A DNA stretch of 35,830 nucleotides from Deltaproteobacteria bacterium (lineage in GTDB: Bacteria > Desulfobacterota > Syntrophobacteria > BM002), in contig JAJDNT010000330.1 of the NCBI GenBank assembly GCA_022340515.1, forward strand, positions 1-35,830. Direction: 5' to 3'. Of this stretch, positions 3,295 to 32,330 are shown in pieces. Within the stretch, counting starts at the first letter, position 1; each line of letters opens with the position of its first letter. The position numbers were made by a program, and so were the translations under genes. The notes below the pieces were generated by a model. It had not been told where the DNA came from. It saw only the letters and a list, made by a program, of their open reading frames with translations, and did no database searches.

Positions 3295-4317
3295 TTGGGA
3301 TTCATATGCCCGGTGGTGAGCGTGTCACAGCAGCAGGAGCACAAGCCAGTTCTCCTCAGCGAGGTCATTGAATATCTGCGCTGTACTCCGGGAAAGCTAT
3401 TTGTGGATGGCACTGTAGGTGGTGGTGGCCACGCACGGGCCATCCTGGAAAAAACAGCGCCTGACGGCCGGCTGATCGGCATAGATTGGGACGAGGAGGC
3501 TTTGGTTAAGGCGCGCTTTAACCTGCAGTCTTACGAGGAGCGACTGGTCCTGGTTCGGGAGAACTTCGCCTTCATTGGCTCGGTCTTGGCGCGCTTGCAT
3601 ATACAGGAAGTGGACGGCATCCTCCTAGACCTCGGACTCTCTTCTTTTCAGGTGGATGAGGCCGAAAGGGGATTCAGCTTCGGCCTGGCTGGCCCTTTGG
3701 ATATGCGCATGGACACCAGGCAGAAGCGCAATGCAGCTCACTTGGTCAACACTTTGGGCGAGGACGAGCTGGCTGAAATAATCTGGAATTTCGGCGAGGA
3801 ACGGTGGCATCGAAGAATCGCCCGTCACATTGTCAGGGCCAGAAACGAGGAGGCCATAGAAACCACCGATCGTTTGGCCCGAGTGGTTTGTAAAGCTATT
3901 CCGGCAAGTAAGAGATCCAGGCAGCGACATCCGGCCACTCGCACTTTTCAAGCCTTACGATTGGCGGTGAACCGGGAACTCGATCACCTCCAAACCTTCC
4001 TTCAGGGAGCTCTAGACTGGCTCAAACCTGGTGGCCGACTAGCTATTATTTCTTTTCATTCCCTGGAGGATCGGTTGGTAAAGCAAACTTTCGTCCAGTG
4101 GGCCCGATCATGTCGCTGCCCGCCTCGCTCGCCCATCTGCCAATGTGAGGGTAGGCCTCTGGTGCGGCTAGTTAACAAAAAGCCAGTGGTGCCAGGCAAA
4201 TTAGAGATAAAGACAAACCCCAGAGCTAGGAGTGGCCGCCTCCGGGTGGTGGAAAAGCAAAAGTTGCATGAGCAAGAAGAGCAAAAAAAAGTCAGCCAAA
4301 AAAAAGACAGTGCCTAA
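3295..4317 (+). CDS. rsmH: 16S rRNA (cytosine(1402)-N(4))-methyltransferase RsmH
   Basis: RsmH (MraW) transfers a methyl group from S-adenosylmethionine to N4 of C1402 in the ribosomal P site. At 340 residues the length is slightly above average. The SAM-binding loop VDGTVGGGGHA lies at about 37-47. Later family blocks include DLGLSSFQVDEAERGFS, PLDMRMD, FQALRLAVNREL and ISFHSLEDRLVK. There is a cysteine cluster CRCPPRSPICQC near the C-terminus. The start is inferred as TTG 3295, with GAGGGG 8 bases upstream. GTG 3313, 3316 or 3322 are alternatives. Its 3' end overlaps the ftsL start. Confidence 0.96.
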   Translation: MGFICPVVSVSQQQEHKPVLLSEVIEYLRCTPGKLFVDGTVGGGGHARAILEKTAPDGRLIGIDWDEEALVKARFNLQSYEERLVLVRENFAFIGSVLARLHIQEVDGILLDLGLSSFQVDEAERGFSFGLAGPLDMRMDTRQKRNAAHLVNTLGEDELAEIIWNFGEERWHRRIARHIVRARNEEAIETTDRLARVVCKAIPASKRSRQRHPATRTFQALRLAVNRELDHLQTFLQGALDWLKPGGRLAIISFHSLEDRLVKQTFVQWARSCRCPPRSPICQCEGRPLVRLVNKKPVVPGKLEIKTNPRARSGRLRVVEKQKLHEQEEQKKVSQKKDSA

Positions 4318-8356: not shown

Positions 8357-9802
8357 ATGACTGGCAACTCAGAAATTTGGACCCTGGACGATGTACTCGC
8401 GGCCACCGGAGGAAAGCTGCTAGGTGAGGCTAACAAGACAACTTTCCTTGGTATCTCAACCGATAGCCGAACCCTCCGTCCAGGTGAGTTGTTCGTCGCC
8501 TTGGTGGGGGAAAACTTCGATGGTCACCAGTTTGTTGCGCAGGCGGCAAGCACTGGTGCCGCCGGTGGGGTTGTGGCCCTCAGTTCGGCAGAAATATTAG
8601 AGGCCGAGTCCCGGCAGATCACGGTAATTGGCGTAACCGATACGCTCCGCGCCTTTGGTGACTTGGCATCCTTTTGGCGGAGTCAACATTCAGTACCGGT
8701 AGTGGCCATTACCGGGTCAAACGGCAAGACCACTACCAAAGAGATGGTTGCGGCTATTCTTAGCCGCTCCTGGAAGGTTCTCAAAAATTACGGGACTTTC
8801 AACAACCTCGTGGGTGTGCCCCTTACCTTGCTGCAATTAGACAGAACCCATGAGGCCGCAGTGATAGAGATGGGAATGAATCAACCGGGTGAGATAGAGC
8901 GCTTGACCGAAATAGTTCAACCAAGCGTGGGAATGATCACTAATATTCAGCCGGCCCATTTGGAAGGACTAAAAGATCTTGCCTCCATTCAGGCCGCCAA
9001 AGGAGCATTGTTCAAGGGTATGGCAACCACTGCCACCATAGTGGTCAACCAAGACGACCCCAGGGTCTTAGATGAAGCTTCCAGTTTCCCTGGCCGGCAG
9101 GTGAGCTTCTCATCAAAAGGTGATCCAGCAGAGGTGTCACTTGCACGAGTCCTTAGTATGAATGGGGAAGGGAGTCGCTTCCTTCTGAGACTAACAAAGG
9201 AAATTCTCGAGATTCACCTGCCCGTACTTGGCCTACACCACATCAAAAACGCTGTGGCCGCAGCAGCAGTTGCCTGGGCCTTGAACCTACCGGTGAGCAC
9301 CATTGGTGCTGCTCTGGCAGATTTCCACCCCGTTGATAAACGGATGGAAGTACTAACTCTTCCTGGTGACATCCACATAATAAATGACACCTATAATGCC
9401 AATCCTGGCTCTATGGCCGCCGCTCTGGAAACATTGATGCAGGTCAAGCAACAAGGAAGAGCTTTAGCAGCACTCGGTGACATGCTGGAAATGGGAGAAG
9501 AGAGTGCTTCTCTCCACAGGCAGGTGGGCAGGATAGCAGCTAAAGAGGGGGTTGATCACCTTCTGGCCATGGGTAAACAGGCTTCCCACCTCCTCGCTGG
9601 CGCTGCTGAGGCGGGTATGGCTAGGGACCAACTTTTCGAGGCCGGCAGCCATGAGGAAATAGCCACCCTAATCCAGAGCTTGATGGCGGCTGGCGACTGG
9701 CTATTGGTGAAAGGGTCCCGGGGAATGCAGATGGAGAAGGTGGTAGAGGCCCTCATTAAGCTGCTGGGCGGTTCGGCAGACACCGCTTCTGGAGAACCTT
9801 AA
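8357..9802 (+). CDS. murF: UDP-N-acetylmuramoyl-tripeptide--D-alanyl-D-alanine ligase MurF
   Basis: MurF attaches D-Ala-D-Ala to complete UDP-MurNAc-pentapeptide in the cytoplasm. At 481 residues the length is normal. Visible are the N-terminal substrate domain (STDSRTLRPGELFVAL), the P-loop GSNGKTTTKE with lysine at about 124, MGMNQPGEIERL, and NDTYNANPGSM, a hallmark of MurF. ATG 8357 follows a weak GACGAG. The 225-bp spacer after murE is mostly inverted repeat. In most clusters mraY follows murF; here murD comes next after only a short repeat-containing gap. The D-Ala-D-Ala supplier Ddl is not in the window. Confidence 0.97.
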   Translation: MTGNSEIWTLDDVLAATGGKLLGEANKTTFLGISTDSRTLRPGELFVALVGENFDGHQFVAQAASTGAAGGVVALSSAEILEAESRQITVIGVTDTLRAFGDLASFWRSQHSVPVVAITGSNGKTTTKEMVAAILSRSWKVLKNYGTFNNLVGVPLTLLQLDRTHEAAVIEMGMNQPGEIERLTEIVQPSVGMITNIQPAHLEGLKDLASIQAAKGALFKGMATTATIVVNQDDPRVLDEASSFPGRQVSFSSKGDPAEVSLARVLSMNGEGSRFLLRLTKEILEIHLPVLGLHHIKNAVAAAAVAWALNLPVSTIGAALADFHPVDKRMEVLTLPGDIHIINDTYNANPGSMAAALETLMQVKQQGRALAALGDMLEMGEESASLHRQVGRIAAKEGVDHLLAMGKQASHLLAGAAEAGMARDQLFEAGSHEEIATLIQSLMAAGDWLLVKGSRGMQMEKVVEALIKLLGGSADTASGEP

Positions 9803-9822
9803 CTGGGCGCACCGGGTAGAGT

Positions 9823-9853
9823 GTCTAAAGTGAGCTAAAGTGTTTAAAATGCC
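9823..9853. repeat. CTAAAGTG-type short repeat in the mraY slot
   Basis: GTCTAAAGTGAG, GCTAAAGTGTT and TAAAATGCC follow each other at 9-10 bp pitch between murF and murD, where mraY is usually found. A similar array lies at 12629-12664 in the murG slot. Both run on into AAAATTT-rich sequence. Confidence 0.7.
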
Positions 9854-9901
9854 AAAAAATTTAAGAATTAGAAATTGCGAAGCAACTCCACTAATAATGG
9901 A

Positions 9902-11436: not shown

Positions 11437-12633
11437 ATGGCAAACAACTCGATGGCTCATTTAAGCGAATATAAGAACAGATACGACCTTGTCCTTCTGG
11501 GCCTGACCCTCTCCCTCATAGGTATTGGACTTGTGATGTTATACAGTTCCAGTTCAATCATGGCTCAAGAACGCTTTGGCGACAGCATGTATTTCGTCAA
11601 GAGGCAGATTGTCTTTGCTCTTCTCGGTCTTGCTGTTCTGATCATTAGCAAGAACCTACCATATGTTCTTTACCGTCGTCTGGTATATGTCATTCTCGGA
11701 CTCACTTTCCTGAGCCTTATTTTAGTACTCCTTCCTCAAGTGGGGCACCGGGTCGGGGGAGCTAGGCGCTGGCTGCGTTTCGGGCCCATTTCCATCCAGC
11801 CAGCTGAGTTCGCCAAACTGGCACTCATAATCTACATCTCCTACTCTGTCGCCAAAAAGAAAGAACGGATGCGTGACTTTTCGGTTGGCTATGCACCGCA
11901 CCTGGTCATCTCTGCGGTCTTTATTGGTCTGGTTGTAATGCAGCCTGACCTGGGAACCGCCATTACCTTCGCAGTCTTGACTTTTCTCTTGCTCTTTGTT
12001 GCCGGTGTGCGTTTGCGCTATCTTTTGGCCACCGGCTTAGCGGTGACTCCCCTGCTGGCTCTTGCCATAGCCCTAAAGGGTTACCGGTGGGAGCGGTTCC
12101 TCGCCTTTCTAAACCCCTGGCGGGACCCGAGTAACACCAGTTTTCAACTCCTCCATTCCTTATTGGCCTTAGGCTCTGGTGGTCCTCTGGGAGTTGGCTT
12201 GGGCTCCGGCCAACAGAAGCTCTTTTATCTGCCTGAGCCACATACAGATTTTATCTTGGCTGTCATTGGCGAGGAGGCGGGCATATTTGGGGTCGCCATT
12301 GTACTCCTCCTTTATGCTTTGCTCATTTACCAGGGAGTCAAAATAGCCTTAAGAGCCCCAGAGCGCTTCGGAACTTACCTGGCTTTCGGCTTGACCATGG
12401 CAGTGGGGCTGCAGGCCTTAATAAATAGTGCTGTGGTCATGGGACTGTTGCCCACCAAGGGACTACCTCTGCCGTTCATAAGTTATGGCGGCAGTTCCCT
12501 GCTAACCAATTTATTCGCTATGGGCATACTTATGAATATAAGTAGTTACGCCAGGGACCACTCTCGGGACTGGCACGGGGATAACTGGTTGAATTCGCAG
12601 GCTAGAGGGAGGCGGGGTAAAGCAAATGCCTAA
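11437..12633 (+). CDS. ftsW: Septal peptidoglycan glycosyltransferase FtsW (SEDS family)
   Basis: FtsW polymerises lipid II at the septum with FtsI. The 398-residue protein is strongly hydrophobic, with about ten membrane helices. It carries the SEDS signatures QPAEFAKLALIIY, MQPDLGTAI and, near the end, KGLPLPFISYGGSS. The N-terminal segment (LVLLGLTLSLIGIGLVMLYS) and the polar C-terminal tail are as expected. ATG 11437 has no clear Shine-Dalgarno sequence because the heptamer array runs up to it; ATG 11452 is also in frame. murG normally follows ftsW but is absent. Confidence 0.96.
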   Translation: MANNSMAHLSEYKNRYDLVLLGLTLSLIGIGLVMLYSSSSIMAQERFGDSMYFVKRQIVFALLGLAVLIISKNLPYVLYRRLVYVILGLTFLSLILVLLPQVGHRVGGARRWLRFGPISIQPAEFAKLALIIYISYSVAKKKERMRDFSVGYAPHLVISAVFIGLVVMQPDLGTAITFAVLTFLLLFVAGVRLRYLLATGLAVTPLLALAIALKGYRWERFLAFLNPWRDPSNTSFQLLHSLLALGSGGPLGVGLGSGQQKLFYLPEPHTDFILAVIGEEAGIFGVAIVLLLYALLIYQGVKIALRAPERFGTYLAFGLTMAVGLQALINSAVVMGLLPTKGLPLPFISYGGSSLLTNLFAMGILMNISSYARDHSRDWHGDNWLNSQARGRRGKANA

Positions 12634-12664
12634 AGTGCTTAAAGTGCCCAAAATTTCTAAAATT
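12629..12664. repeat. Nonamer repeat CCTAAAGTG / CTTAAAGTG in the murG slot
   Basis: Consecutive 9-mers CCTAAAGTG, CTTAAAGTG, CCCAAAATT and TCTAAAATT begin at the ftsW stop codon and run into the ftsW-murC spacer. The wording matches 9823-9853 closely. Confidence 0.75.
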
Positions 12665-12715
12665 TTAAAAACAGTGCCAAGTATTAGATTTTATGACGAC
12701 TTTGTTACTCGGCCA

Positions 12716-12745
12716 AACAGGCTAAACCGGCTAACTGGCTAAACT
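12716..12745. repeat. GGCTAAAC-type short tandem repeat
   Basis: GGCTAAACC, GGCTAACT and GGCTAAAC run in tandem just before the murC ATG at 12750, with a variant CCAAACA ahead of them. The unit is 8-9 bp. It leaves no recognisable ribosome binding site. Confidence 0.6.
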
Positions 12746-12749
12746 TAAA

Positions 12750-14141
12750 ATGTACAAACGTTCTTACCATATTCACTTCGTCGGAATCGGTGGCATCGGC
12801 ATGAGCGGCATTGCTGAATTGCTCCTGAACCTCGATCATCAGGTCAGCGGCTCCGATTTACAAGAAACGGACATCACCCGCCGACTCGAAGATCTTGGGG
12901 CAACTATTTACTACAGTCATCAGCCTCACCAAGTGGCCGATGCTGACGTGGTCGTGGTTTCCTCGGCCATTGATTCCGACAATCCTGAAGTTCTGGCTGC
13001 TAATAAAGACTATCATGTTCCTGTTATCCGCCGGGCGGAGATGCTAGCTGAGCTCATGAGGCTGAAGTATGCAATTCTGGTCGCAGGAGCTCATGGGAAA
13101 ACCACCACTACCTCCATGGTGGGTACCGTGCTGGCCGAGGGAGGTCTGGACCCCACCGTAGTAATCGGCGGTCGTCTGAATGCCTGGGGAACCAATGCCA
13201 AGCTCGGCCAGGGTGACTTCGTAGTGGCGGAGGCAGATGAGAGTGATGGTACCTTTCTCCTCTATTCACCAACCATCTCTCTGGTTACGAACATCGACAC
13301 CGAGCATCTCGACTTTTATAGAAATCTAAATGAGATTAAAGAAACCTTTCTTGAATTTATGAATCAGGTTCCCTTCTACGGTCTCAATATCCTCTGCCTT
13401 GAGGATGAAAACATTCAGAGCCTGTTGCCAAGAATTAACAAGCGAGTGGTTACCTACGGTTTTTCGGCCCAGGCTGATTTCCAAGCCCGCGAGGTTTCCT
13501 TTACTGGACTCAATGCCTCTTACCTCGCCTACTATCGTGGTCAGGAATTGGGCAAAGTCAACCTCTCCATACCTGGGTGGCACAATGTGCTTAACTCCTT
13601 GGCAGCCGTTGCCGTGGGGCAGGAACTAGAAATTCCCTTCTCTGCTATTTGCCTTGGCCTGAAAGAGATGACTGGGGTGCAGCGTCGCTTTCAAATTAAA
13701 GGATCAGTGGCTGGAATTACCATAATCGATGACTATGGCCATCACCCAAACGAGATCAAGGCAGTGCTTAGAACTATAGCTGAGTCCTTTCCAGGCCACC
13801 GTCGCTACGTGCTCTTTCAGCCCCACCGCTTCACCCGAACCCAAGCGCTATTCGAGGACTTTACTACCGCCTTTTACCAGTCTGATGTTCTCATTGTCAC
13901 TGACATCTACGCAGCCAGCGAAAGGCCGATTCCCGGGGTGCATGCTGAAAAGCTGGCGGCGGCCATACAAGAGCATGGTCACGGCAATATCAGGTACATA
14001 GCCAATCCCGTGGATGTTATTCCCCTTCTTATGGAAGAAGTGCGGGAGAAAGATGTGGTTTTAACTCTCGGCGCAGGAAATATCTGGCAAACAGGAGAGG
14101 AGTTTCTGGAACGATTGCGAGAAAGGGAAGGAAGCACGTAG
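12750..14141 (+). CDS. murC: UDP-N-acetylmuramate--L-alanine ligase MurC
   Basis: MurC adds L-alanine to UDP-MurNAc, the first stem-peptide step. The 463 residues include the N-terminal HFVGIGGIGMSGIAELL Rossmann motif, the P-loop GAHGKTTTT (lysine at about 117), EADESDGTFL, and the metal/ADP region DDYGHHPNEI. The C-terminal domain ends with TLGAGNIWQTGE. All key segments look intact. ATG 12750 fits the family N-terminus. It is followed 39 bp later by murB through another heptamer array. Confidence 0.97.
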   Translation: MYKRSYHIHFVGIGGIGMSGIAELLLNLDHQVSGSDLQETDITRRLEDLGATIYYSHQPHQVADADVVVVSSAIDSDNPEVLAANKDYHVPVIRRAEMLAELMRLKYAILVAGAHGKTTTTSMVGTVLAEGGLDPTVVIGGRLNAWGTNAKLGQGDFVVAEADESDGTFLLYSPTISLVTNIDTEHLDFYRNLNEIKETFLEFMNQVPFYGLNILCLEDENIQSLLPRINKRVVTYGFSAQADFQAREVSFTGLNASYLAYYRGQELGKVNLSIPGWHNVLNSLAAVAVGQELEIPFSAICLGLKEMTGVQRRFQIKGSVAGITIIDDYGHHPNEIKAVLRTIAESFPGHRRYVLFQPHRFTRTQALFEDFTTAFYQSDVLIVTDIYAASERPIPGVHAEKLAAAIQEHGHGNIRYIANPVDVIPLLMEEVREKDVVLTLGAGNIWQTGEEFLERLREREGST

Positions 14142-16026: not shown

Positions 16027-17253
16027 ATGGCCAAAGATAATTCGTTGATCGTAGGGCTGGACATCGGCACCACCAAGATTTGCGCCGTAGTCGGCGAGAT
16101 GACCCCGGAAGGAATCGACATAGTGGGTATTGGCACCCATCCCTCTGAGGGATTGCGTAAAGGTGTGGTGGTCAACATCGAAAGTACAGTTGATTCGATC
16201 AAACGAGCAGTGGAAGAGGCAGAGTTAATGGCTGGTTGTGAGATCAATGCGGTATACGCCGGTATTGCCGGCGGCCACATCGAAGGCCACAACAGCCATG
16301 GTGTCATCGCCGTCAAAAATCGGGAAGTAAGCCAGCAAGACATCGACAGGGTGATCGATGCAGCCAAGGCAGTAGCAATTCCCTTCGACAGAGAAGTAAT
16401 TCACATTTTGCCCCAGGAATACATCATTGATGACCAAAGGGGTATTCAGAATCCTTTGGGCATGTCCGGGGTACGTTTGGAGGCCAAGGTCCACATTGTT
16501 ACTGGTGCTGTCACCTCAGCCCAGAATATCGTCAAATGTTGCCAACGGGCCGGCCTCGACGTCTGCGACATAGTCCTGGAGTCCCTCGCCTCCGCCGAAG
16601 CAGTGCTGAACCCACAAGAACGCAAATTGGGCGTGGCCTTGGTGGATTTTGGTGGTGGTACTTCGGATTTAGCCATCTTCTCGGGAAACAGTATCCGCCA
16701 TAGCTCAGTTCTCTCCCTAGGCGGCAACAACCTCACCAATGACATTGCCGTGGGTTTGCGGACCCCGGTGGAAGAGGCCGAGAAGATCAAACAACGATAT
16801 GGCTGTGCAGTCACCGCCATGATTCAGAAGGATGAGACTATTCAGGTTCCCAGCGTTGGAGGTGGCAAGCCAAGAGTGCTTAGCCGTCACATTTTAGGCG
16901 ACATCTTGGAGCCTCGAGTTGAGGAAGTGTGTTCCTTGCTTCAACGTGAACTTTTTCGTTCCGGTTATTCGGATCTTGTTGCCTCCGGTTTGGTGATTAC
17001 TGGCGGCTCCGCTTTGCTTCCAGGTATTGCCGATTTGGCCGAGCAGGTTTTCAACCTGCCGGTGCGAACCGGCGTACCCACCGCCATCGGCGGCTTGGTG
17101 GATGTGGTCAAGAACCCTATGTACGCAACTGGGGTAGGATTGGTCCTCTACGGGGCAAACTCCAAGCCTAAAAAACTGTTTCGCATACGTCAGAATAATG
17201 TCTTCAATCGGCTCTTAGATCGAATGCGAAAATGGTTCAAGGATGTAGTTTAA
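16027..17253 (+). CDS. ftsA: Cell division protein FtsA
   Basis: FtsA is an actin-like ATPase that tethers FtsZ to the membrane. The 408 residues begin with the phosphate-1 motif LDIGTTKICAVVGE and include the SHS2-like 1C region (GIDIVGIGTHPSEGLRKG). Phosphate-2 is DFGGGTSDLAIF at about 207-218. The adenosine motif is TGGSALLPG. The final helix (FNRLLDRMRKWFKDVV) is amphipathic with basic and aromatic residues, the usual membrane-targeting tail. AGGGAG precedes ATG 16027. It is followed by a 39-codon ORF and ftsZ. Confidence 0.97.
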   Translation: MAKDNSLIVGLDIGTTKICAVVGEMTPEGIDIVGIGTHPSEGLRKGVVVNIESTVDSIKRAVEEAELMAGCEINAVYAGIAGGHIEGHNSHGVIAVKNREVSQQDIDRVIDAAKAVAIPFDREVIHILPQEYIIDDQRGIQNPLGMSGVRLEAKVHIVTGAVTSAQNIVKCCQRAGLDVCDIVLESLASAEAVLNPQERKLGVALVDFGGGTSDLAIFSGNSIRHSSVLSLGGNNLTNDIAVGLRTPVEEAEKIKQRYGCAVTAMIQKDETIQVPSVGGGKPRVLSRHILGDILEPRVEEVCSLLQRELFRSGYSDLVASGLVITGGSALLPGIADLAEQVFNLPVRTGVPTAIGGLVDVVKNPMYATGVGLVLYGANSKPKKLFRIRQNNVFNRLLDRMRKWFKDVV

Positions 17254-17330
17254 TTGCTGACCATCAGTTGAGGTGAACTCTTACTCAATAACGTCCGACG
17301 ACTTGTGTCGCTAAATCAGGAGGGAGCACA

Positions 17331-17450
17331 ATGACTGAGTCGGACCTTTGCTTCGTGCTCACCGTGTTCATCACATGCATGGGCTGCTATGTAGTTCTGA
17401 CTATGGGGTTTGTCTTCTTCGCTCGCCGGCTGCAAGGCAAGGGCTCGTGA
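17331..17450 (+). CDS. Putative 39-residue single-pass membrane microprotein between ftsA and ftsZ
   Basis: A short frame, ATG to TGA, with one of the best ribosome binding sites in the window (AGGAGGGAG, 5 bases before ATG 17331). It encodes MTESDLCFVLTVFITCMG, then CYVVLTMGFVFFARRLQGKG and a final S. The frame is one hydrophobic helix of about 25 residues with an acidic N-terminus and a basic tail (ARRLQGKGS). By the positive-inside rule the tail faces the cytoplasm. Cysteines sit at 7, 16 and 19. I do not recognise a family. Position between the FtsZ tether and FtsZ suggests a division-related or regulatory role, but that is inference. It could also only couple translation of ftsZ. Confidence 0.6.
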   Translation: MTESDLCFVLTVFITCMGCYVVLTMGFVFFARRLQGKGS

Positions 17451-17499
17451 AGTGGTGCGGGTGAAGGTGTTTTAAACGCTTTAGTGCAGGAGGTGGATT

Positions 17500-18657
17500 A
17501 TGATGTTTGAGTTCGTTGAAAGTGATAACGGAGCCAAGATTAAGGTAATTGGCATAGGCGGTGGAGGCGGTAATGCGATTAACAACATGATCAATGCCAA
17601 TCTGCGAGGCGTTGATTTTATCGCCGCCAACACCGACGCCCAGGCCTTGGAGGTCTCCAAGGCCACCACTAAGCTCCAACTGGGCGTCAACATTACTAAA
17701 GGACTTGGGGCTGGGGCTAATCCCGAGATTGGTCGCAGCGCCGCCCTAGAAGACGCGGACAAGCTTCGCCAGGCCCTAGAGGGTTGCGACATGGTCTTCG
17801 TCACCGCTGGTCTGGGCGGCGGCACCGGTACCGGCGGTGCCCCTATAGTAGCACAGCTGGCCAAGGAACTGGGAGCCCTTACCGTAGCGGTGGTGACCAA
17901 ACCTTTTAATTTCGAAGGTCGTCAGCGCATGAGGACAGCCGACAACGGCATCAAAGAGCTCAAGGAAGTGGTGGATACTATCATTACCATTCCCAACAAT
18001 CGCTTGCTGAGCCTAGCGGCCAAGAAAGCTACTTTTCTGGAAATGCTTAAGAAGGCTGACGATGTGCTTCTCTATGCGGTGAAAGGGATTTCTGATCTCA
18101 TCACCATTCCTGGTCTGATCAATCTCGATTTTGCCGACGTCAAAACGATTATGAGTGAGATGGGCATGGCTCTTATGGGCACTGGTATGGCCAGTGGAGA
18201 AGATCGGGCTACTGAAGCGGCTCAGAAGGCCATATCGAGCCCCTTGCTGGAGGACGTCTCCATAAGTGGAGCCAAGGGCGTGCTCATGAATATCAGCAGT
18301 GGTCTTGATCTCACTATTGACGAGGTCCAGGAGGCATCTTCCCTGATCCAGAAAGAAGCCCATGAGGATGCCAACATCATTTGGGGTACGGTCTTGGATC
18401 AGAGCGCCGGAGACGAACTGCGAGTTACAGTGATTGCAACTGGAATTGGCGAAATAGATGCGAGGCCTAAACCCGACTTGGGAGTTATCCATGGCTCCCG
18501 TCGTGAGGATGATCTGGATATCCCCACCTTTTTACGACGGAATCGAAAGAGTGAAGACGGCAGGGGGGAGTTGAGTCGCCCCATGAGCTACAAGGACCTG
18601 CCCATAGATGAAGACGAACTGGAAATCCCCACCTTCCTCCGACGGCAGGCGGATTAG
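17500..18657 (+). CDS. ftsZ: Cell division protein FtsZ with two C-terminal IPTFLRR peptides
   Basis: FtsZ is the tubulin-like GTPase that forms the Z ring. It has the N-terminal [13 protein letters not shown], the tubulin signature [12 protein letters not shown] at about 104-115, and the T7 synergy loop NLDFADVK at 208-215, so it should polymerise and hydrolyse GTP. Length is 385 residues. The variable tail holds the conserved C-terminal peptide twice: [10 protein letters not shown] at about 338-347 and [13 protein letters not shown] at 373-385. In well-studied FtsZ proteins this peptide occurs once, at the end, and binds FtsA, ZipA, MinC and others. AGGAGGTGG upstream supports ATG 17500 or 17503. 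Expression is probably from the dcw operon. Confidence 0.98.
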
Positions 18658-31115: not shown

Positions 31116-32330
31116 ATGTCACAAGCACGCCTTCGAAGGACCTTACCGACTCCGGCCACCGGGATACTGCTGGCCGGAATCGTCCTGCTGTCGGCGTTGC
31201 TGGGGGCATGCCAGCCCAAGGCGAGCCGGCCGACGGCGCCGTGGCCGGTTCCCGCAGACGTCGATCACACCACACCAGCCCAGGCCTATGCTGGTGAGGT
31301 TCTCAGCTACATGATACAGGTTGTCCTGGGGGCGGCCGGACCGGTGGACAACCGGGAGCGCTGGCAACGGCGGGGGTTGGAAGTCCCACTTGATTATCAC
31401 GAAATCGACGCCATCTTGAAAAGTCCGGAGGCAGACAAAACCCGTTTGATGGTCTTGGACCCTCACATCCTCGGCCTTTCAAGCGTGCTCTATCACTACG
31501 ACCAACGCCTAAATCAATTCAAAGGGCGCACGGTGTTCAACAGCCTCTACCCGTCAACAGAGCTTCTGGCGTTACGGCTGCTCTTGGTTCGAAAGCAGAA
31601 GACCGGCGACAAGATAGATCTGTCGGCCCTGTGGCGGCACCAGGAACTGCTGCGGTCAACGGATCGGTCTACGGATCCGGCGCAGCTGCAGAAGTTCAAC
31701 CTTTCGGCCGAGGAGTTGACGTTGCTGCAGGCGGTCATAGAGGCGGAGCCCCACTTTCTAGAGTATCTACACCACCCCAACATCGTCGGTGCCCTGACCG
31801 ACATGCAACTGGTTCAGGAGGATACCGCGATCCAGCGCAGCCAACACCTGGTCGGCACACCTGAGTTGGCCTTCGAACACATCTCCGGACCGCGGGACAA
31901 CCGCGCTTTGCGGGTTGCCATTCTGCCCTCATTGACCGCAGCCTTCTCATTCGGACCCCAGGCCGGAGAACTGTCGCGCCACGGTTTTCGGCCGACAAAA
32001 CCCTATGTAGACGCGGTCAACCGGGTTGCCGCAGAGTTGTCCGCGGCCGAAGCCGCGGAAGGGACGCCGACCCGTCCCGGAGTTGACGTTTTCGCTTTGA
32101 TGGAAAGGCCTCTGGTAGTCACGCCCGAAAACGATCTGGCGGTGGTGGAGCGCATCTGCCCCTGGGCCAAGGTGGTCTTCATCCTGTTGGGCAAGGACGT
32201 CTATCTGTCTCTGGGGCCCAAATCAGCCGGCCGACCTCCCCGGATCTATCTGGACATCGAAGATGTTCTTTACGGAATGGTATCGGACGAAATCGAGATG
32301 GCGGCCGCCTTTTTGCGCTTGTCCACCTGA
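31116..32330 (+). CDS. Uncharacterised GC-rich lipoprotein
   Basis: 404 residues with a lipoprotein signal: basic start (MSQARLRR), hydrophobic core (TGILLAGIVLLSALL) and lipobox LLGAC with the acylated cysteine at 32. The mature part begins QPKASRPTAPWPVPADVD, a proline-rich linker. The rest is helical and charged with no catalytic motif I recognise (for example YPSTELLALRLLLVRKQKTG and DIEDVLYGMVSDEIEMAAAF). Residue 33 is not aspartate, so an outer-membrane destination is likely in a Gram-negative. G+C and codon use appear higher than in the neighbours, which suggests separate acquisition. The start has no clear ribosome binding site. Confidence 0.75.
   Translation: MSQARLRRTLPTPATGILLAGIVLLSALLGACQPKASRPTAPWPVPADVDHTTPAQAYAGEVLSYMIQVVLGAAGPVDNRERWQRRGLEVPLDYHEIDAILKSPEADKTRLMVLDPHILGLSSVLYHYDQRLNQFKGRTVFNSLYPSTELLALRLLLVRKQKTGDKIDLSALWRHQELLRSTDRSTDPAQLQKFNLSAEELTLLQAVIEAEPHFLEYLHHPNIVGALTDMQLVQEDTAIQRSQHLVGTPELAFEHISGPRDNRALRVAILPSLTAAFSFGPQAGELSRHGFRPTKPYVDAVNRVAAELSAAEAAEGTPTRPGVDVFALMERPLVVTPENDLAVVERICPWAKVVFILLGKDVYLSLGPKSAGRPPRIYLDIEDVLYGMVSDEIEMAAAFLRLST

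Follow-up and report, generated by a model that had tools for sequence, protein, structure and literature searches.

FtsZ is tethered to the membrane by the membrane-targeting helix of FtsA, by ZipA and by SepF, and MciZ of Bacillus subtilis is a small, soluble, sporulation-specific FtsZ inhibitor. The link between FtsZ and the membrane is also a possible place of action for the microprotein described here, which is encoded between ftsA and ftsZ. Its 9-residue tail, however, is far too short for an FtsZ-binding domain of the ZipA or SepF kind, and an intact ftsA already lies beside its gene. MciZ, listed as a division SEP (PMC6385055), is similar in length (about 40 residues) and in its connection to FtsZ, but the microprotein has a transmembrane helix. 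Among membrane proteins, Blr (41 aa) and YmgF (72 aa) of Escherichia coli are small and divisome associated (PMC7648144), and they resemble the microprotein in being very short, membrane located and tied to division, with Blr having nearly the same length. The division role of Blr and YmgF comes from two-hybrid data, with caveats given in that paper, and interaction assays of the co-purification or split-reporter type can yield false positives when the proteins are small and membrane bound (PMC7648144); the division role of the microprotein, by contrast, is a proposed one. A further difference is that searching the family libraries with the microprotein gave no match. We know of no ftsA-ftsZ location for either Blr or YmgF.

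SidA of Caulobacter and YneA of B. subtilis inhibit division from the membrane by acting on FtsW (PMC4211646; PMC13396833), and YneA binds FtsW through its own transmembrane helix (PMC13396833). Both are small single-pass membrane proteins, as the microprotein is predicted to be, and the YneA helix offers a model for how a bare helix could act in the microprotein, showing that a helix can suffice for targeting. In contrast to the microprotein, which is encoded in a division operon with a spacer devoid of promoter-like sites, SidA and YneA are checkpoint inhibitors inducible upon DNA damage, and YneA additionally has a LysM domain. Among small-protein families that have at least three members, more than half are genus specific (PMC11364881); small families of this kind are common, and what is unusual here is that the gene always keeps its place between ftsA and ftsZ.

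Reading frame, translation signals and predicted product

The window, i.e., the whole 35,830-nucleotide stretch of DNA that was analysed, holds a standard division and cell-wall cluster in the order mltG, mraW, ftsI, murE, murF, murD, ftsW, murC, murB, ftsQ, ftsA, microprotein, ftsZ (murE and murB named from position and sequence, the other cluster genes by domain scan; Table 1). A preliminary description of this DNA had pointed to an uncalled 39-residue frame between ftsA and ftsZ, and its start, its clean end and its product are as claimed: MTESDLCFVLTVFITCMGCYVVLTMGFVFFARRLQGKGS, 39 residues, is read from ATG 17331 to TGA 17450. The strong Shine-Dalgarno sequence said to precede it, AGGAGGGAG, is present, but it lies 4 bases from the ATG and not 5, while the distance from the GGAGG core is 7 bases, a normal spacing. 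The duplex of this site with the anti-Shine-Dalgarno 16S tail (−10.8 kcal/mol) ranks third among the window's 19 scored gene starts, behind ftsZ (−11.6) and one other start (−12.0), in agreement with the earlier view that the site is stronger than most ribosome binding sites here; some of the 19 starts are longest-ORF guesses, however, so that the sites of other genes may be understated. Only 6 of the 526 plus-strand ATGs of the window reach −10.8 kcal/mol. Furthermore, among the window's ORFs of 20 to 120 aa with a strong Shine-Dalgarno sequence, the microprotein alone has a helix of transmembrane grade (Kyte-Doolittle [KD] 2.31; runner-up 1.20).

Table 1. Positions of the microprotein gene, its parts and neighbours in the window, and of MurJ-MurG-HEAT frames at other loci (prefixed L)
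Feature	Coordinates	Strand	Basis or remark
Microprotein gene, 39 codons + TGA	17331..17450	+	single-pass membrane product (predicted); kept in 10/10 congeners
Shine-Dalgarno AGGAGGGAG of microprotein gene	17318..17326	+	sequence, anti-Shine-Dalgarno duplex energy, kept in 10 genomes
Transmembrane helix hydrophobic core, codons 8-30 (predicted)	17352..17420	+	alignment, KD, AlphaFold2, uncharged; F8, L10, C16-x-G18-C19, F27, F30 invariant
Basic C-terminal tail ARRLQGKGS, codons 31-39	17421..17447	+	R32, R33, K37, G38, S39 invariant; predicted cytoplasmic
ftsA	16027..17253	+	PF14450 E 2.7e-53, PF02491; upstream neighbour
ftsZ	17500..18657	+	PF00091 E 1.7e-50, PF12327; downstream neighbour
ftsZ Shine-Dalgarno region TGCAGGAGGT	17485..17494	+	invariant in ten genomes; −11.6 kcal/mol
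MurJ-MurG-HEAT	L124:2040-5654	-	G010, all domains
MurJ-MurG-HEAT	L127:1594-5193	-	G007, all domains
MurJ-MurG-HEAT	L128:1635-5285	+	G002, all domains
MurG + HEAT parts only, cut by contig end	L125:2064-3980	-	window's own genome

With respect to the product, KD window values (1.82 to 2.83 across the genus), the hydrophobic stretch without charge at residues 8 to 30 and the single AlphaFold2 helix over residues 3 to 37 (mean pLDDT 89) all bear out the one hydrophobic helix of the preliminary description, and its acidic N-terminus and basic C-tail likewise agree with the charges: the first seven residues carry 0 to −2 in each orthologue checked, and the last nine carry a net +3 in the window protein and +3 to +6 in the genus. 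The product is thus strongly predicted to be a 39-residue single-pass inner-membrane protein. According to the positive-inside rule, the basic flank of a transmembrane helix lies on the cytoplasmic side, so the C-tail is predicted to be cytoplasmic and the acidic N-terminus periplasmic (N-out/C-in). A single conserved helix face that could act as a packing surface was not supported (conservation periodicity, P = 0.47 to 0.86).

Conservation, selection and distribution

A protein search of 60 relatives recovered the frame in all 9 other genomes of the genus (E 1.4e-3 to 1.6e-16) and gave no match with a credible E-value outside the genus among these 60. In the ftsA-ftsZ spacers of relatives, where the preliminary description had suggested looking, a short one-helix frame sits at the syntenic place in 9 of the 9 other congeners (relatives with named records are MAGs), and a profile search found one copy per genome in the ten genomes, with no second copy elsewhere. 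The 39 codons contain no indels and no stops across the ten genomes, and the distance to ftsZ is 48 to 51 bp throughout, while the leader 5' of the gene ranges from 58 to about 450 bp and the whole ftsA-ftsZ spacer from 227 to 618 bp. Large spacer insertions lie immediately 5' of the gene at two loci (L024 and L029). The coding sequence of L024 is that of L028, and its upstream DNA is unrelated to that of L026 and L028 up to the Shine-Dalgarno sequence, which despite this stands at about the usual distance, as it does in all ten genomes.

Orthologue identity to the window protein falls from 82% to 38% over the ten-genome alignment, in which 14 positions are invariant (M1, D5, F8, L10, C16, G18, C19, F27, F30, R32, R33, K37, G38 and S39). 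The most distinctive feature is the C16-x-G18-C19 step inside the helix, which is retained in L022 at 38% residue identity. At the nucleotide level, the final 12 bases of the gene (AAGGGCTCGTGA, 17439-17450) are invariant in 10/10 genomes, synonymous sites included, and unchanged even in the most diverged of the ten; a rough estimate puts the chance of this at a few percent.

Pairwise pN/pS in the frame is 0.40, against a column-shuffle mean of 0.85, with a value as low in 1 of 2,000 shuffles, and stops appeared in one or more rows in 1,975 of the 2,000. The other five frames show pN/pS of 0.54 to 1.25 and contain stops, the microprotein frame alone being stop-free in 10/10 genomes. Under a codon model on the ftsA + ftsZ tree, maximum likelihood gives omega = 0.215 (lnL −584.24), and omega = 1 is rejected, reaching at best lnL −602.19 over a grid of kappa values (worse by 18 log units, 2ΔlnL about 36); the dN/dS comparison proposed earlier thus reveals the synonymous bias expected of a gene. 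Neither outcome named in the preliminary description as refuting the gene, a frame not conserved in close relatives or codon changes unbiased toward synonymous sites, was observed. Omega is 0.046 for ftsA and 0.051 for ftsZ, indicating that the microprotein is constrained, yet evolves about four times faster than these two genes relative to the synonymous rate. Because the frame is conserved in 10/10 genomes and is under purifying selection, 17331-17450 is, by sequence comparison, almost certainly a genuine protein-coding gene, a statement that refers to coding function and not to accumulation of the product. Short membrane proteins in core operons can easily escape notice when length cut-offs are applied, and the microprotein passes the evolutionary test.

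Beyond the genus, the spacers of the sister genera G010 and G011 (215 and roughly 280 bp; FtsZ identity 85% and 77%, respectively) contain no such frame, and a profile search of the rest of G010, G011 and G012 found no microprotein. The absence from sister spacers rests on G010 and G011, the assembly of G012 being incomplete and lacking an ftsZ match. The spacer of one sister-genus locus (L030, about 3786-4000) holds no microprotein and has an inverted repeat, TTCCCTGCAGC ... GCTGCAGGGAA, before ftsZ. No short frame with a transmembrane helix was seen in the ftsA-ftsZ spacers, about 70 in number, of Desulfobacterota that are less closely related and of other bacteria; the only hydrophobic frames lay in two gaps of unusual length (about 2 and 2.5 kb). 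Profile searches of 56 genomes of the class and 395 of the phylum returned nothing credible outside the genus; a match in G231 (E 7e-4 over 21 residues, among the 395 genomes), located between signalling genes, was rejected as a homologue, being at chance level. Viral contigs, plasmids and phages gave no credible match, and the window protein matched nothing in Pfam, NCBIfam, PHROG or the PDB, with other family members showing only scattered library matches at E ≥ 0.014. Within the genomes searched, the gene is, as far as homology searches tell, confined to one uncultured Desulfobacterota-type genus, to which it is dated because it is absent from the readable sister genera, and the most parsimonious scenario is that it was acquired in the ancestor of the genus. 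The entry of a new small protein into a conserved operon can thus be studied here within the bounds of one genus, which makes the case a tractable one.

Proposed role and rival explanations

Scanning 17100-17600 (promoters with a sigma-70-type scan on both strands) revealed no promoter- or terminator-like site. Given this, the gene order on one strand and its own strong Shine-Dalgarno sequence, the microprotein is most likely translated from a common ftsQ-ftsA-(microprotein)-ftsZ message, its synthesis keeping pace with that of FtsA and FtsZ. Its basic 9-residue tail would then lie at the cytoplasmic face, beside FtsA and the acidic FtsZ tail, where it may tune the seating of FtsA/FtsZ filaments on the membrane, and the helix that carries the invariant CxGC step may pack against a transmembrane helix of FtsW, FtsQ/L/B or FtsI; the microprotein would in this way serve the early divisome as an accessory subunit that is constitutively present. 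An accessory role in the FtsA/FtsZ divisome, specific to this lineage, is the likeliest reading, with chances that we consider about even, and it is drawn from position and topology. Any role would be accessory and not core, because the gene is limited to one genus. The location within the core division cluster and the charge asymmetry in each checked orthologue count for a divisome role, while the lack of a conserved helix face and an omega about four times the values for ftsA and ftsZ count against it; gene order reflects shared history and is no proof of shared function. That the microprotein modulates FtsA-FtsZ attachment, as first proposed, is possible in view of its genomic position and predicted topology. 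More tentatively, and with somewhat less than even probability, it may have become a permanent subunit of the machinery that anchors the Z-ring, binding FtsA, FtsZ or FtsW through the CxGC helix and the basic tail. If a division role is true, FtsA-FtsZ coupling can gain lineage-specific parts; if the subunit reading is true, a machine that ranks among the most conserved in bacteria would have been extended recently by the microprotein.

The main rival to a divisome role, which we regard as unlikely although deserving of weight, is that of a real single-helix membrane microprotein working elsewhere, e.g., stabilizing a transporter or respiratory complex, with the operon location explained by steady expression at this site. 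Many characterised small single-helix proteins are transporter or oxidase subunits, and, the gene having been gained within one genus, its location may be accidental; yet in ten genomes it is never found outside the ftsA-ftsZ spacer and has no second copy, even though the spacer tolerates insertions. AcrZ and KdpF appear among the transport SEPs listed in PMC6385055. Membrane peptides silenced by antisense RNA, i.e., type I toxins of the Hok/Ldr/TisB kind, are short and have one helix and a basic tail, and this general resemblance in size and form is the reason to consider them here. We judge a toxin to be very improbable, since the gene is present as a single copy per genome at a fixed place and not in multiple copies, has a strong Shine-Dalgarno sequence with no exceptional structure burying it, shows no promoter-like site on either spacer strand (sigma-70-type scan) and has neither a match in plasmids, phages or viral contigs nor a confident family match.

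Alternatively, translation of the ORF could open RNA structure over the ftsZ start, with the peptide itself mattering little. RNAalifold pairs codons 11 to 20 with the ftsZ Shine-Dalgarno/ATG region in 10/10 genomes (94 to 98% of cells paired), the codons for CMGC pairing in the consensus with bases around the ftsZ Shine-Dalgarno sequence and start. However, this suggestive fold and its pair counts did not survive the column-shuffle null (consensus fold z = −0.4, with 99 of 300 shuffled alignments as stable), individual minimum free energy z-scores are around 0, and duplex P values range from 0.01 to 0.32. Selection at the amino acid level and a constant membrane topology would also be unexpected if the peptide were dispensable. 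We therefore reject the fold as indicating an RNA element and consider a translated leader or coupling element improbable, keeping it in view on account of the final 12 bases (AAGGGCTCGTGA), whose invariance extends to synonymous sites. A frame that is open by chance and yields no product would be in keeping with a length of only 39 codons, but frame, start, stop and Shine-Dalgarno sequence are kept in 10/10 genomes while most of the surrounding spacer diverges, and omega = 1 is rejected, which leaves this explanation with hardly any probability.

The surrounding cluster and the MurJ-MurG-HEAT frames

At the 3' end of ftsZ (18516-18657), the protein ends in two IPTFLRR C-terminal peptides, a doubling found throughout the family, with looser second copies in many other Desulfobacterota. 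The idea that the doubled peptide goes together with the microprotein was rejected, as sister genera without the microprotein also have the doubling. Elsewhere in the window, 31116-32330 is a 404-codon open frame without a Pfam match at E 1e-4.

In the cluster, mraY is absent between murF and murD (9802-9875) and murG between ftsW and murC (12633-12750), and the two adjoin each other elsewhere in the genome. In G010, G007 and G002, a single frame of 1,199 to 1,216 aa adjoining mraY combines MurJ (PF03023), MurG (PF03033 + PF04101) and C-terminal HEAT repeats, while the contig of the window's own genome holds the MurG and HEAT parts only. MurJ is the lipid II flippase and MurG the lipid II synthase; the literature searched contained no text naming a MurJ-MurG protein. 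In a natural enzyme-flippase fusion of this kind, the synthesis of lipid II would be coupled with its export. In most family genomes searched, the best MurG match sits in a frame of similar length.
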